DNA of 64,000 nt. Origin: Gimesia chilikensis. Lineage in GTDB: Bacteria > Planctomycetota > Planctomycetia > Planctomycetales > Planctomycetaceae. Position 1 is the stretch's first letter, and the number at the start of each line of letters is the position of its first letter. The translations under genes and the position numbers were made by a program. Positions 22,818 to 32,553 of the stretch are shown here, piece by piece. The stretch covers positions 7,344,564 to 7,408,563 of the forward strand of contig NZ_CP036266.1 in the NCBI RefSeq assembly GCF_007744075.1, read 5' to 3'. Under the pieces are notes generated by a model. The model did no database searches. It saw nothing but the letters and a program-made list of their open reading frames with translations, and was not told where the DNA came from.

Positions 22818-24692
22818 TTACAGCTTGGGAACTTTGATTTCCTTACCGACTTTGTCGTAGCGTGGATCGCGGAAGTGTTCTACAAAGTACATGCCGAAAC
22901 CCTGATTGAGTTCGTATTGTGCCCGTTGGGCCCAAGGGGTACCAGGATGCTCTTTGATCACCAGCTTATACTGGTTTTCCGCTTTTTTGAGTTGCTTATC
23001 CAGTTCTTCCGGGCTGACCTTGGTGAGTTTGACCTGGACCGGATCCGGGGGCAGCATTTTTTTACCACGTTTCACATTCCAGGTGTTGCTCTTCTGGTCC
23101 TTGGGAGCAGGCATGTTTTTAGCATGCGAGTCCATGGCCAGGCAGTACTGGAACAGACGAACGCGGTAGGCCAGACACTGTGCCAGTGTCAGGTCGTAGG
23201 CAGCACGCCAGCGGGAGGATTTTTCCTGAGCCCGCAGCGGTTCGATGTCTTCGAGAATGTCGACGGCTTTCTGCAGGAGGCCCATGGCACGGATGGCCTT
23301 GGGAACTTCCTTGCTGCCGGCTTCGTAAAATTCTTTCTTCTTTAGTGGGTAGTAAAGTTCCTTGATATTCAACTGCTTATCCAGGTGCGGATTGAGCGTG
23401 ACGATCACCTTCCAGATAGAAGAACGGAACTTGCTGGCTGAACGGGTAGCATCGTATTCACGACGTGAGAGCAACAGGGGCTGATACTCTTTCATATCCT
23501 GGAAACGGAACTGCCGCTCCTGGTTGCTGCCGGCACCGGCCAGACGCTGTTCTTTGCCGGGCAGAACGAAGAAGATACCACCGGTTTCACGGGCGATGCG
23601 AACCTGCTCGTAAGGTCCGAACCCGGCCGAGAAGGAATCCCAGCGGCCGTGCAGACCGTCGTATTGCAGAGACTCGGGAAACGCGGTTTCCGGTCCCCGG
23701 TTAATCTGAATCCAGTGGGGCAGATTGTAAACGGGATCACGCCAGAGCTGACGGGCATAGGGATAGCCGAAGACCGACTCGCGTCCCAGAATGTAAATCG
23801 GAGACTTCATCCGCTTGGCGCGGGTGATGACTTCTTCAACGGCGGCGCCGTCATCGCCGGACTCGTCGGTCACACAGACGATACAGAGACGGCGGTCGGT
23901 TTTACGGGCCATGGTACTGTATTTGTCGATCGTGGCCGCGACGGTCTGGCACATGTTTTCCAAGCCGGTTTCATCGATGGGAATTTTGCCGATGGCGTCC
24001 TGAACTTCTTTGACGTCCATGGTCGGCTTGGGGGTATGTACGTGAACGGTGGCCCCATAACTGAGAATGGCCGTCAGCAGGGTCTGGTCCCGTTCGCGGG
24101 TTTTCTTTTCCTGTTTGGCGGCGATACCAAGTTCGCTGTAGATCTTATTGAAGTTCTCAGAAATTTCTTTCTGGTCGTCTTTCATACTTCCCGATTCGTC
24201 GAAGAGCCAGACCACCAGAATTTTCTCTTCCCGCATGATGCGGATCAGTTCTTTGGAGATGCGGCTCATGGCGGTGCCATAACCTTCGACGACCGCACCG
24301 ACTTCACCGGTGACTTCACCGACACCGAGGTCTTCGCCCAGGATGTCATCGCCGGGCGCTGTGATTTCGCCGGCGTTGATTTTGATTTCCGGTTCTTTGA
24401 GACTCTCAGAGGTTTCAATTTTCTGAGAGGAGACGGCGGTTGACGTTGAGGCGCCGACGTTCGTCGAGACCATGCCACCGGAGGTCACACTCAGGTTTTC
24501 AGAGACTTCAAGATTGGTTTCCAGAACCTGTTCGAACTCCGCCTGATCGCGTTCGTCATCGAAGATGGTTTCGATGGCGACTTCGGGCTGACTGTCGGTG
24601 AGCTGATGATGGATCAGTCCCATGCCGACCAGAATCACAGCGTGAACGATCAAAGAAGTAAAAAAGGCTGAATAGTCTCGCGCTTGAGCCAT
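22818..24692 (-). CDS. VWA-domain protein with TonB-like N-terminal anchor (copy 1)
   Basis: A 624-residue protein from the ATG at 24692, with GGGGGA upstream. A single membrane helix at about residues 10-28 contains Ser13-L-I-V-His17, the SxxxH pattern found in the TonB anchor. A linker rich in Glu, Ser and Thr follows. The VWA domain begins about residue 157 with the MIDAS motif D165-E-S-G-S169 and includes VCVTDESGDD. The C-terminal third (about 470-620) is helical with an EHPGTPWAQRAQYEL motif resembling TPR-type trailing helices. It is a paralogue of the next gene upstream, which has the same architecture. It is probably a periplasmic protein driven or anchored by an inner-membrane complex; the role is inferred. 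Confidence 0.88.
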   Translation of the reverse strand: MAQARDYSAFFTSLIVHAVILVGMGLIHHQLTDSQPEVAIETIFDDERDQAEFEQVLETNLEVSENLSVTSGGMVSTNVGASTSTAVSSQKIETSESLKEPEIKINAGEITAPGDDILGEDLGVGEVTGEVGAVVEGYGTAMSRISKELIRIMREEKILVVWLFDESGSMKDDQKEISENFNKIYSELGIAAKQEKKTRERDQTLLTAILSYGATVHVHTPKPTMDVKEVQDAIGKIPIDETGLENMCQTVAATIDKYSTMARKTDRRLCIVCVTDESGDDGAAVEEVITRAKRMKSPIYILGRESVFGYPYARQLWRDPVYNLPHWIQINRGPETAFPESLQYDGLHGRWDSFSAGFGPYEQVRIARETGGIFFVLPGKEQRLAGAGSNQERQFRFQDMKEYQPLLLSRREYDATRSASKFRSSIWKVIVTLNPHLDKQLNIKELYYPLKKKEFYEAGSKEVPKAIRAMGLLQKAVDILEDIEPLRAQEKSSRWRAAYDLTLAQCLAYRVRLFQYCLAMDSHAKNMPAPKDQKSNTWNVKRGKKMLPPDPVQVKLTKVSPEELDKQLKKAENQYKLVIKEHPGTPWAQRAQYELNQGFGMYFVEHFRDPRYDKVGKEIKVPKL

Positions 24693-24818
24693 CAGTAATA
24701 ATCCCCCCGGCACTTTCTCAGCGAACTGCTTTCAAAGTGTTGTGCCTGTTTTGTTTCAGCGTTGGATGTTGCAGAAACGAGTCTTGAAAAATCAGTTGAA
24801 ATGATATGTCAGAAACCC

Positions 24819-24844
24819 GAGGCTCCTGCAATCTCAGGAGCCTC
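24819..24844 (-). terminator. Hairpin terminator after VWA gene 2
   Basis: A ten-base-pair perfect stem GAGGCTCCTG/CAGGAGCCTC with a six-base loop; the minus strand then reads GGGTTTCT. It lies between the stop of VWA gene 2 (24887) and the start of VWA gene 1, so the two paralogues are probably separate or partly separated transcripts. Confidence 0.65.
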
Positions 24845-24886
24845 AGTATAAAACTCAAGTGTTGTCGGTGTATTCAGTTAGGTAAA

Positions 24887-26803
24887 TCAGATCTTCAGCG
24901 GTTTGTTGGGAGAAACACCCCGTTTTCGGAGGGCTTCATTTCTCTTACGCTGTTCTTCCTCAAAACGTGGGTTCGGTGTTCGGACCCGGTTACCGCTGTT
25001 GTCGAGGTTCAGCTTCATTTCCTGCCACTTCCAGCCCAGTGGTTTTTCCAGCTCTTTGGCGGCCAGATAGGACCAGGGAGTTCCCGGATGCTCGTCGATC
25101 ACGCCATTCAGGAGTTCCATGGCCTGCTTTTCCAGTTTCCGTACAGTTGGGCTGGAACGGGCGTCTTTGGCGGCTACCAGTCTCCAGGCGTTGTTGCCTT
25201 TTGTCTCGAAGACTTTGGGATTGCTTTTCATTTCGGCGAGGATCGTGTTGTATCCGTGAGCACGTGCCTGATTGGCCAGGACGCGGCCCAAGGCCAGATC
25301 GTAGTTGGCACGCCAGCGGGGTTCTGTGATTTTCTTACGATCTTTGAGCCCCTGTTCCAGCATGACCTGCAGTTCATTCAAGCCGTAGCTGAGCTGCGAG
25401 ACCGGCTTCTGGGCTTCAGTAATCGCCTGCCTGAGAACGTTATCGGTATTGGCAGGAAATTCCAGAGTGGGCTGAGGCAGTCGACGGTCAGAAAGTCGAG
25501 TTGCCGCGGCTGTTCGGACGAGCGCCTGCTTAGCCATGTTTTGTGTGAGCATTCGCTCGTAATCGCGAATGGAGATGTAATCGGGATGGTAGTCCCGCAT
25601 ATCGGCTGCTTCAAAATTGGGAGACGTATCTTCGGTGATGAAGTAGATCCCGTTGGTTTCCGCACAGAGACGTGTCAGTGCGTAGGGACCGTAGCCTGAG
25701 CTGATCTGGCGAATGTCGTAATCGGACTGCCCCCAGAACGGCAGTTTGATACGTTCGGGCAATACAGTTTCCGGTCCGGATTGCTGAACAGCAGGAACTT
25801 CAATACCAGGTTCGATAGGGAACTGGATGACCACTTCCTGCTGACCAAAGGGAGAGGCGTTCCCCACGACGTAGCATTTAATGCCGTTACGTTTGGTGAG
25901 CAGAATGGTTTCTTCCAGGTTCTGAACCGCATCGGTGCCTGCTTCATCGGTTACCACGATGACCATCATATTACGGCGGCTGGAACGTTTGTAGGACAAC
26001 CAGCGTTTGGAGACCTGGTTCACAGCAGCGAAGACGTTTTCATCGCCGGAGGTATCTTCTTTGATCGAACGGATCTGGGAAACGACTTCTTTGACATCAC
26101 TGACCGGATCTTTGGTCACGAACTGGGTCGTCGCACCAAAGGCGGCGACAGCGGTTTTGAGTGAAGATTCATTTTCGGCGGCTTCGAGGATGCCCAGCTG
26201 TTTGTAGACGTTTTCAAAGCGATCGGCGATTTCGTTACGCCGCTGACTGACTGAAGGTGAAACGTCGAACAGCCAGACGACCAGCAGTTTTTTCTCTTTG
26301 ACCGCGGCAGCGATTTCGAGGGTCAGACGATCGATGGCCCCCGCTACTCCGCCCGGACGGTCGGTTTCGCCGGTGACTTCCACGGCAGCCGTCAGTTCTT
26401 CCTGGGCGGGCTGAGTCAGGTTGTCATCAAAGACCGGTTCGGGAGTTTCAATATCATTTTCCAGCTGATCCTTTAACGCTTCCTGCTGCTCTTTGGCTGA
26501 GACAGGGGCGGCCGCCATGGAGGGGGCCAGAATCTCGGTATCGCCGGCGGAACCAACGACGTCCTGAATGGTGGGATCGAGTTTGAAAACGTTGTCGTCC
26601 AGTTCTTCGATGGAAGAAATAATCGCATGTTCCGAATCGAGGAGCGTAATGCGGGTGATACTTGCCAGGACAAACAGAATCAGCAGGTGGACCCCGAGAC
26701 TGATAAACCAGGCGGGAACTTCTTTCATATTGAGCCAGCTGCGGTGTTCGACGTCGACGATTTCTTCGACATGAACGTCTCTGGTGGAATTGGCAATACT
26801 CAC
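24887..26803 (-). CDS. VWA-domain protein with TonB-like N-terminal anchor (copy 2)
   Basis: I start at the GTG at 26803, preceded by AAGGAG at six bases; an earlier in-frame GTG at 26839 would translate through that ribosome site. The product is 638 residues. After about 30 cytosolic residues, a membrane helix carries Ser35-L-G-V-His39, with Leu46 and Thr50 at the further positions of the TonB SHLS pattern. The VWA domain has MIDAS D180-V-S-P-S184 and a later VVTDEAGTD. The C-terminal helical region ends with EHPGTPWSYLAAKEL, matching copy 1. It is probably periplasmic. The precise role is unknown. Confidence 0.88.
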   Translation of the reverse strand: MSIANSTRDVHVEEIVDVEHRSWLNMKEVPAWFISLGVHLLILFVLASITRITLLDSEHAIISSIEELDDNVFKLDPTIQDVVGSAGDTEILAPSMAAAPVSAKEQQEALKDQLENDIETPEPVFDDNLTQPAQEELTAAVEVTGETDRPGGVAGAIDRLTLEIAAAVKEKKLLVVWLFDVSPSVSQRRNEIADRFENVYKQLGILEAAENESSLKTAVAAFGATTQFVTKDPVSDVKEVVSQIRSIKEDTSGDENVFAAVNQVSKRWLSYKRSSRRNMMVIVVTDEAGTDAVQNLEETILLTKRNGIKCYVVGNASPFGQQEVVIQFPIEPGIEVPAVQQSGPETVLPERIKLPFWGQSDYDIRQISSGYGPYALTRLCAETNGIYFITEDTSPNFEAADMRDYHPDYISIRDYERMLTQNMAKQALVRTAAATRLSDRRLPQPTLEFPANTDNVLRQAITEAQKPVSQLSYGLNELQVMLEQGLKDRKKITEPRWRANYDLALGRVLANQARAHGYNTILAEMKSNPKVFETKGNNAWRLVAAKDARSSPTVRKLEKQAMELLNGVIDEHPGTPWSYLAAKELEKPLGWKWQEMKLNLDNSGNRVRTPNPRFEEEQRKRNEALRKRGVSPNKPLKI

Positions 26804-27230
26804 GGTCTGCTCCTTGGGATGAGACTGTAATTCAAGCACGCGCTTTGTACGTCTGCACGGAAAACGCTGTCACTCACAGGCCGCACGGATACCGCAGCCC
26901 GCAACTGACATCAGTTAACATTGATGATTATAAGAAAATCCGTCCATCAATGGTGCGTCAAATGTCAGATTTTACCCCTGAAGGGAGACAAATACAATCA
27001 TTGCCCTTCCAGACCGCACAGAAATGTATTCATAAGTACACACTCCTGCACATCGTACCCATCACGTGCTACCAGATTAACCTCAAAACCAGGCTTTACA
27101 TTCGTCTTTATTTTTGCATTCTGCAATAATTTAAGTCGATGGACGAACTGTAAGAGTGCCCCCTGCGACTCCCGTTTTATGAATCCGGGGCTGTTAAACA
27201 CACTATTCTGACTCAGATCTGGTATCACCT
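26804..27230. other. Divergent intergenic region, no gene seen
   Basis: About 430 bases between VWA gene 2 and the DUF456 gene, including the ribosome site of VWA gene 2 at its left end. Base composition is more AT-rich than the flanking genes. No clear promoter pair, hairpin or coding frame was found. Confidence 0.55.
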
Positions 27231-28492: not shown

Positions 28493-29428
28493 TTAAAACT
28501 CGCCGACCACTTCGCCGGTGGCACGGGTGGAAAGTCCTTTCAACAGATCCAGACTGGTGCTTTCAGACAGGAACCGGACACTGCCATCACAGAGCAGCAT
28601 GTGCGCGCCGCCGACGTGCTGACTGCGCCAGCCGACACCATATTGACTGTGACTTCCCGAACCGATGGGATACTGCATCAGCTTGGTGTCGATCATCAGA
28701 TAACCGTCGGAGCCGTAGTAGTAGGTCGCCCAGGTCCAGGGTGCGATGTCATCCCAGCCCCCTTTGGAACCACTCCAGCCAATGTAGCTGGACAGCTCGC
28801 CGAGCAGGAAGGTGTTGGTGGTACCGTCGGTGATGTCGCGCATCCGGGTTTTACAACCGGGATAGAGGACCCCTGAAGTTCCGTAGTGCCGACTCGAATT
28901 GGAACCGTTAACGAAGCCGACATCAACGGAACCGCCATTGCCACGGTAGTGCAGCGAGCCGTCATTCCCGGGGTTACCACCCCAGGCGGTTGAGTAGTCG
29001 TTAGCCCGTTCGCCAATTTCCGAAGAGGGGCAACAGAAGACCGCGATCGGATCGGTAAACAGGTTTGTATCTCCATTGTGAGGAGATGTTGTGAAGCGAT
29101 AGGGCTGGATGCGGGTCAGTTCTCCCAGGGAGGTCATCTGGTTGTAGCGGGGTGCCTGATCGATATAAGGCAGAATACGGGCAGCCCAGCCGGTCAGATA
29201 GCCTGAGCTATGAAAGTAACCTGTGGGGAACATGGTGAAGTTGTCGTGGTAGTTATGAAAGGCCAGTCCGAGCTGTTTCATATTGTTTTTACACTGGGAA
29301 CGCCGGGCGGCTTCACGGGCCTGCTGGACAGCGGGCAGCAACAGGGCAATCAAAATCGCAATAATGGCGATGACGACCAGGAGTTCAATGAGCGTGAAAG
29401 CACGCCTGCGGGTTGTGGATACTTGCAT
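28493..29428 (-). CDS. DUF1559 prepilin-like protein (module 1)
   Basis: A 311-residue protein. The N-terminus [16 protein letters not shown] is a type IV prepilin/pseudopilin leader; cleavage would fall before Phe, with Ala and not the usual Gly at -1. The helix continues into [19 protein letters not shown], the conserved DUF1559 start. The C-terminus has the H-x-G-like ending [18 protein letters not shown] typical of DUF1559. These proteins form a large planctomycete-specific family, probably exported by a type II-like pathway. Function is unknown. The next gene on the strand is the small lipoprotein. Confidence 0.94.
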
Positions 29429-31638: not shown

Positions 31639-32553
31639 TTACCATTCACCGATGACCTGACCATCGTTGATGACGGCCAGTCGGAAGTAAGTGCTGGTTG
31701 CGGAAGAAATGGTGCCCGGATTATTGGAAGCATCCATGTTTTCACTGGCGAAGCGAACAGCGCCATCTGCCATGAGCACATGCACGCCGCCCTCATGCAG
31801 ACTGCTGGGACCAAACTGGTAACCGGTGCCGTTGATCATGGACCAGCCGACACGTGCCTGAACCAGACCGTAACGAATGTTTTCGAATTTGTAGGTAGTC
31901 GCAGCACAGGGAGTGACTCCTGCCCAGATCGAACCAATGTGGTTCGTGCCGGCAGCGTCGTTCACGGTGGTTCGTTCTGTGAACGCAAACGTGTTGGAGA
32001 GCCCATCGGTAATGTCGCGGATCCGGGTTTTGCTGTCCATGTAGAACATGCCGTTCGGCCGGGAAGTGTTACAACGATAATCACCGTTGCCATTGAAGCC
32101 GAGGTAATTGGACAGACCGATGGCCACGCCACTCACTCTGTTGTCTGCGTTCTGAGCCGGGTTGGGATCGGCGCTGGACGGACAGAGGTAGGCGGGCAGA
32201 ACCGTACGCACATCGGCGAGTACGGTGGTGTTGGTCAGATCCATGGGCCTGTTGGGGCTGATTTTATTGTAGAGAGGAGCCTGATCCATGAAAGGGAGGA
32301 TAAACAGGTTGCACAACCAGCCGTGATCGTTAATGAATCCGGGTGGGAAGACGCGATGAGTTTCGTTGTAGTTGTGCAGCGCGAGGCCAATCTGCTTGAG
32401 ATTGTTTTTACACTGACTGCGGCGGGCCGCTTCGCGTGCCTGCTGGACGGCGGGCAGTAAGAGGGCGATCAGAATCGCGATGATGGCAATGACCACCAGC
32501 AGTTCGATCAGGGTGAAGCCGCGTTTGCGGACGGTGGGTGCAGATAGACTCAT
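31639..32553 (-). CDS. DUF1559 prepilin-like protein (module 2)
   Basis: A 304-residue protein with a canonical prepilin leader, [16 protein letters not shown] (Gly at -1). The [19 protein letters not shown] segment and the C-terminal DUF1559 ending (GGVHVLMADGAVRFASEN) follow. It is paralogous to the protein at 28493: the N-terminal 60 residues are nearly identical and the central part is divergent. It is transcribed towards its lipoprotein partner, the reverse of module 1. Confidence 0.94.
   Translation of the reverse strand: MSLSAPTVRKRGFTLIELLVVIAIIAILIALLLPAVQQAREAARRSQCKNNLKQIGLALHNYNETHRVFPPGFINDHGWLCNLFILPFMDQAPLYNKISPNRPMDLTNTTVLADVRTVLPAYLCPSSADPNPAQNADNRVSGVAIGLSNYLGFNGNGDYRCNTSRPNGMFYMDSKTRIRDITDGLSNTFAFTERTTVNDAAGTNHIGSIWAGVTPCAATTYKFENIRYGLVQARVGWSMINGTGYQFGPSSLHEGGVHVLMADGAVRFASENMDASNNPGTISSATSTYFRLAVINDGQVIGEW

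Follow-up and report, generated by a model that had tools for sequence, protein, structure and literature searches.

Tandem VWA proteins of Gimesia chilikensis carry TonB-like Ser-His membrane anchors and may form a proton-driven periplasmic arm

The closest systems described to date are the SHLS-vWA proteins, which have been proposed as force transducers driven by the proton motive force (PMF), Planctomycetes included (Williams-Jones et al. 2025, PMC12204202, Fig. 4a/b). In that paper, their genes lie beside TPR-tolQ-tolR-tolR, they are contrasted with a family encoded as heterologous pairs, and their function is not known there either. A second group of the same paper, the TPH-vWA family (Fig. 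4c/d), is found beside tolQ and has no SHLS; its transpore helix carries an Asp that binds protons. Contacts of a Ser-His helix with its motor have been seen by cryo-EM of TonB-ExbBD, in which TonB Ser16 and His20 touch ExbB Ser34 and Trp38 (PMC12215075). Asn has been reported as a full substitute for TonB His20.

We analyzed a tandem pair of VWA genes, denoted A and B, in the 8.29-Mb genome of Gimesia chilikensis. The window, that is, the whole stretch of DNA that was analyzed, is 64,000 nucleotides long; features of the pair are collected in Table 1. On the minus strand B comes first and A follows, with 194 bases separating the genes, and the longest B reading frame in the ORF list opens at 26839. 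The two paralogues have a common layout, in which a linker joins a single N-terminal helix carrying Ser-x3-His to a VWA domain and the C-terminal part contains EHPGTPW. An earlier note on this DNA had claimed for both proteins the single SxxxH helix, a MIDAS-bearing VWA domain and the HPGTPW motif, and for B also Leu and Thr at the remaining SHLS positions; the reading frames, the motifs and Pfam matches to VWA in both proteins bore this out (counting from the His, B has Leu at +7 and Thr at +11, and A has Met and His there).

Table 1. Features of the A and B genes, in positions of the window
Feature	Position	Strand	Basis
Gene A	24692-22818	minus	ATG start, 624 aa; ORF and translation; Pfam VWA, 32.9 bits; AlphaFold2, mean pLDDT 80.9
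A N-terminal transmembrane helix, residues 10-33	24594..24665	minus	Hydropathy, model, column statistics; S13 (codon 24656-24654), H17 (codon 24644-24642), Met at +7
A linker, residues 35-126	24315..24590	minus	pLDDT <50; acidic stretch after helix; alignment
A VWA domain	23547..24245	minus	MIDAS D165-x-S167-x-S169, T242, D276; Pfam, alignment, structure match
A C-terminal helical domain, residues 436-624	22821..23387	minus	EHPGTPW; weakly TPR-like; domain-only model, pLDDT 95.4
Gene B (paralogue of A)	26803-24887	minus	GTG start after AAGGAG, 638 aa; Pfam VWA, 38.2 bits
B N-terminal transmembrane helix, residues 30-53	26645..26716	minus	Hydropathy and translation; S35 (codon 26701-26699), H39 (codon 26689-26687)
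B VWA domain	25859..26281	minus	Pfam match
B C-terminal helical domain	24890..25492	minus	EHPGTPW; alignment

Like the SHLS-vWA transducers of PMC12204202, A and B have an N-terminal SHLS-type helix, a disordered linker and a vWA head. Ser, His and Leu of SHLS are kept in the family and the last Ser is not, and A itself departs at the Leu; the succession of linker and head is present, with pLDDT below 50 across residues 35-126 of A and a VWA domain recognized by both Pfam and structure. No tolQ/tolR-like synteny was found nearby in the window, and none was consistent in about 120 homologous loci; the paper calls such synteny frequent ('often'), not strictly required. Whereas the SHLS-vWA genes described there adjoin their motor genes and are set apart from heterologous pairs, A and B are themselves a heterologous pair distant from motor genes, and their products, of about 630 aa, have an added C-terminal helical domain. 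In being membrane-anchored vWA proteins in heterologous pairs they resemble the TPH-vWA family of the same paper, but their helix has Ser-His and no Asp, and no tolQ is adjacent.

With E. coli TonB and TolA, the pair shares the Ser-x3-His-x6-Leu helix face and the three-part layout; it differs in a head made of VWA plus a helical domain, in the absence of an adjacent motor gene and in the variable fourth residue of the motif. Clusters of MoxR, DUF58 and VWA genes, which we take to encode the Bat-type VWA proteins of Planctomycetes, also contain envelope proteins with a MIDAS-bearing VWA domain, as A and B are. However, the Bat-type clusters of this genome encode MoxR-like ATPases and multi-helix VWA proteins that lack an N-terminal SxxxH anchor, and none lies beside A and B.

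An AlphaFold2 model of A, built from 45 homologues, has a helix at residues 2-33, disorder at 35-126, a VWA core and a helical C-terminal region. Residues 150-382 align to known VWA domains (VIA-align, Z about 14-16); MIDAS residues D165, S167, S169 and D276 are invariant in the 45 homologues, and position 242 is mainly Ser or Thr. The C-terminal part, modeled by itself with high confidence, is a helical domain plus two strands. A Foldseek search with this domain against the PDB returned nothing at E <= 0.001, the best natural match being the YbgF TPR domain (E 0.19); 14-3-3 and designed helical proteins were rejected as relatives, their VIA-align scores (Z about 8) not being meaningful. A PDB sequence search using the family profile gave zero matches, and no TonB/TolA family Pfam match was found in A, B or 43 relatives. 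After the helix comes a short hydrophobic stretch and then acidic residues, roughly at the distance of the TonB D-box, although it does not clearly match the pattern given in PMC10907165.

Family homologues of A are present in 164 of 198 Planctomycetia genomes. The earlier note had suggested checking whether Ser and His are invariant among homologues: Ser proved invariant, and Asn was the sole replacement of His. With 45 homologues of A and B aligned by MAFFT without use of the motif, the S13 column is Ser in 45/45 and the H17 column holds 43 His and 2 Asn; 40 Leu, 4 Met and 1 Ala occupy +7, and most remaining helix columns vary freely. Across 58 non-redundant anchors, the entropies at -4, 0 and +7 are 0.00, 0.29 and 0.61 bits, of which only the +7 figure is independent, the windows having been selected by S-x3-H/N. 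Leu stands at +7 in 52 of these 58; most other helix columns have 2.0-3.0 bits, +4 on the same face has 1.33, and +11, the last Ser of SHLS, is not conserved.

Wider sampling gave the same picture. A first set of 86 anchors comprised 78 SxxxH, 7 SxxxN and 1 with neither (a lipoprotein-like signal); a second set, taken from 80 named loci and sharing some genomes with the first, comprised 89 SxxxH, 22 SxxxN and no other, with 4 unreadable. A B-type relative (L016:1498-3153) has a lipoprotein-like N-terminus (LALFVGCDG) and no SxxxH anchor. For background, we sampled 0.8 Mb of this genome, less than the full proteome, and took its ORFs with one or two N-terminal transmembrane helices; SxxxH fell within the helix in 1 of 150, in a protein that reads as bestrophin channel-like. 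Throughout the window, A and B alone have an SxxxH anchor, and among flanking ORFs of related genomes it occurs in 12/221, seven of these being a third, cyclase-like SxxxH gene.

When 158 family members (134 His and 24 Asn anchors) were placed on a tree, two independent changes accounted for the Asn anchors, which fall into two groups, one within each of the paralogue clades. His is constant in the A genes of tandem pairs, and B has Asn in nine of these pairs; Asn appears in A only in genes with no B neighbor within the stretch read. Replacement by Asn, in two events and not many, would be expected if the position does the same job as in TonB. A and B form separate clades, each of which covers families f1, f2 and f77; the duplication therefore predates these families. 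The order is B then A in all 38 tandem pairs of the named set, and in one f2 genome two A-type genes stand in tandem. Most homologous loci have no conserved neighbor besides the partner gene. Elsewhere in the window, two proteins (28493-29428 and 31639-32553) have a pilin-like N-terminus and are presumably DUF1559-like; proteins of that type are common in planctomycetes.

Genome-wide, 10 matches to the MotA/ExbB family and 7 to ExbD were found, none closer to A and B than about 0.4 Mb; ExbB proteins are encoded near 420967, 4334855, 5316052 and 6854804 of G000:C1. The earlier observation that no exbB or exbD gene is adjacent thus extends to homologous loci in general: among about 120 of them, few have a motor gene within 10 kb, its type differs between loci, and by our estimate random placement would produce about as many. 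An attempt to name the cognate motor from synteny was abandoned, as the loci with motor genes within 10 kb (L112, L121/L221, L224, L265 and L210) have different types. Co-occurrence, also suggested as a check, holds but does not discriminate: ExbD genes are present in 198/198 genomes of the class, including those that lack the VWA family. Three ExbB proteins of the genome (L001, L002 and L004) have a Ser at about the place of ExbB Ser34, and the Trp is apparently not conserved; any contact of the anchors with ExbB would therefore differ in detail. Two TPR-ExbB loci (L089:5093-8327, with two exbD genes, and L091:6836-11100) are candidates for motors that drive proteins whose genes lie in other places.

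Genes for SxxxH-anchored proteins also occur directly beside motor genes in this genome. At L088:4920-9475 (G000:C1 about 5312919-5317474), a 342-aa VWA protein with PSWAASLAIHSLILLIL is encoded in a same-strand cluster of the SxxxH-VWA gene, an lspA-like gene, a TPR gene, exbB and two exbD genes; the arrangement is close to that of SHLS-vWA transducers in the PVC group (PMC12204202). At L093:3816-6083, exbD is overlapped by a gene whose 755-aa product resembles squalene cyclases and has SIIVH in the second of its helices. Seven loci of one lineage, in Schlesneria-type genomes, encode a relative of this product immediately downstream of A: a third SxxxH-anchored protein, with a squalene-hopene-cyclase-like fold, at L209:10032-11630, L196:10056-11666, L123:7142-8713 and four more loci. 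The N-terminal part of the family profile also matches SxxxH-anchored proteins of 500-570 aa across the phylum, some with the cyclase fold and most without a motor neighbor. Acidic linkers follow SxxxH anchors in proteins of about 500-570 aa at L305-L311, L315, L317 and L324, with several per genome in some. The phylum thus seems to reuse the SxxxH anchor as a module for diverse periplasmic heads.

By analogy with the known transducers, we consider it likely, at a probability of roughly 60%, that A and B form a heteromeric TonB/TolA-like arm docked on ExbB and driven by the PMF. The two proteins would be two parts of a periplasmic arm anchored in the inner membrane, each N-terminal helix using its Ser and His, together with the Leu at +7, to dock on the outer face of an ExbB-type pentamer whose gene lies at another place in the genome. 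The disordered linker, of about 90 residues, would extend into the periplasm, where the VWA-MIDAS head and the helical C-terminal domain would hold a partner located on either the cell wall or the outer membrane; at the cost of PMF, the ExbBD motor would move or strain the arm. From the data above we infer the docking on ExbB, the force transduction, the A-B heteromer and the nature of the bound partner. Coupling of A and B to the PMF is plausible because the Ser is invariant and the His is replaced by Asn only. It is favored by the two motor-linked SxxxH genes of this genome, beside TPR-ExbB-ExbD-ExbD in one case and overlapping exbD in the other. Against it stand the absence of an adjacent motor gene, the variable +11 position, the universality of ExbD and the unclear fit of the D-box pattern. 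As for the PMF-linked VWA machine proposed in the earlier note, the coupling thus survives as a plausible idea but is not new, and the statement that no such machine had been described fails at the level of the class, given the SHLS-vWA transducers proposed in PMC12204202.

Other readings of the anchors must be weighed. Chance, with an ordinary signal anchor happening to contain SxxxH, would be worth considering for one protein, for which a four-residue spacing is a weak signature by general reasoning. Conservation refutes it: the motif of A and B is not due to chance, because 1 of 150 background anchors has it, compared with SxxxH or SxxxN in all but one readable family anchor. Alternatively, the Ser-His-Leu face might serve helix packing, for A-B pairing or with another membrane partner, in passive VWA scaffolds with no link to a motor. 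The fixed B-A order and the unlinked motor genes would suit such scaffolds, as would the pattern of His and Asn within tandem pairs, which points to helices under unequal constraint. We nevertheless judge this unlikely, as the spacing of Ser, His and Leu is identical to that of TonB/TolA, SxxxH is also present in proteins with unrelated C-terminal folds whose genes directly adjoin exbB/exbD in this genome, and unpaired A or B genes retain Ser with His or Asn.

It is also conceivable that A and B bind ExbBD yet regulate, localize or plug the motor, the real transducer being another protein. A localizing role of the TonB-ExbB helix contact has indeed been proposed for TonB (PMC10907165), and the two TPR-ExbB loci mentioned above have no SxxxH neighbor. 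However, a helix followed by a disordered linker and a binding head is the layout of a transducer, and the MIDAS site is conserved, so that a role of this kind seems quite improbable. Returning to the PMF-driven arm, we can envisage a broader picture in which Planctomycetes use TonB-like arms interchangeably, the heads of these arms being unrelated (VWA pairs, small VWA proteins and squalene-cyclase-fold toroids) and a small number of ExbBD motors serving them in trans. In that case the two VWA heads of the B-A pair would belong to one proton-driven machine, with one helix keeping His and the other possibly using Asn. We offer this picture tentatively, as possible but on balance doubtful.

A and B are probably motor-driven arms of a kind already proposed in PMC12204202. 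Not described in the accessible part of that paper are an ancient B-A pair of fixed order, SHLS anchors distant from motor genes, the added C-terminal helical domain and the natural Asn variants, though the supplements of that paper may list the family; a literature search for von Willebrand proteins in Gimesia gave no result. The clades in which His has naturally become Asn are evolutionary evidence in line with the conclusion drawn from mutants that the His of the TonB helix need not be protonated. If our reading is true, the proton-driven Ton/Tol principle would also power processes other than the uptake of nutrients and the stabilization of the outer membrane, and the tandem VWA proteins would exemplify this widely in the Planctomycetia.
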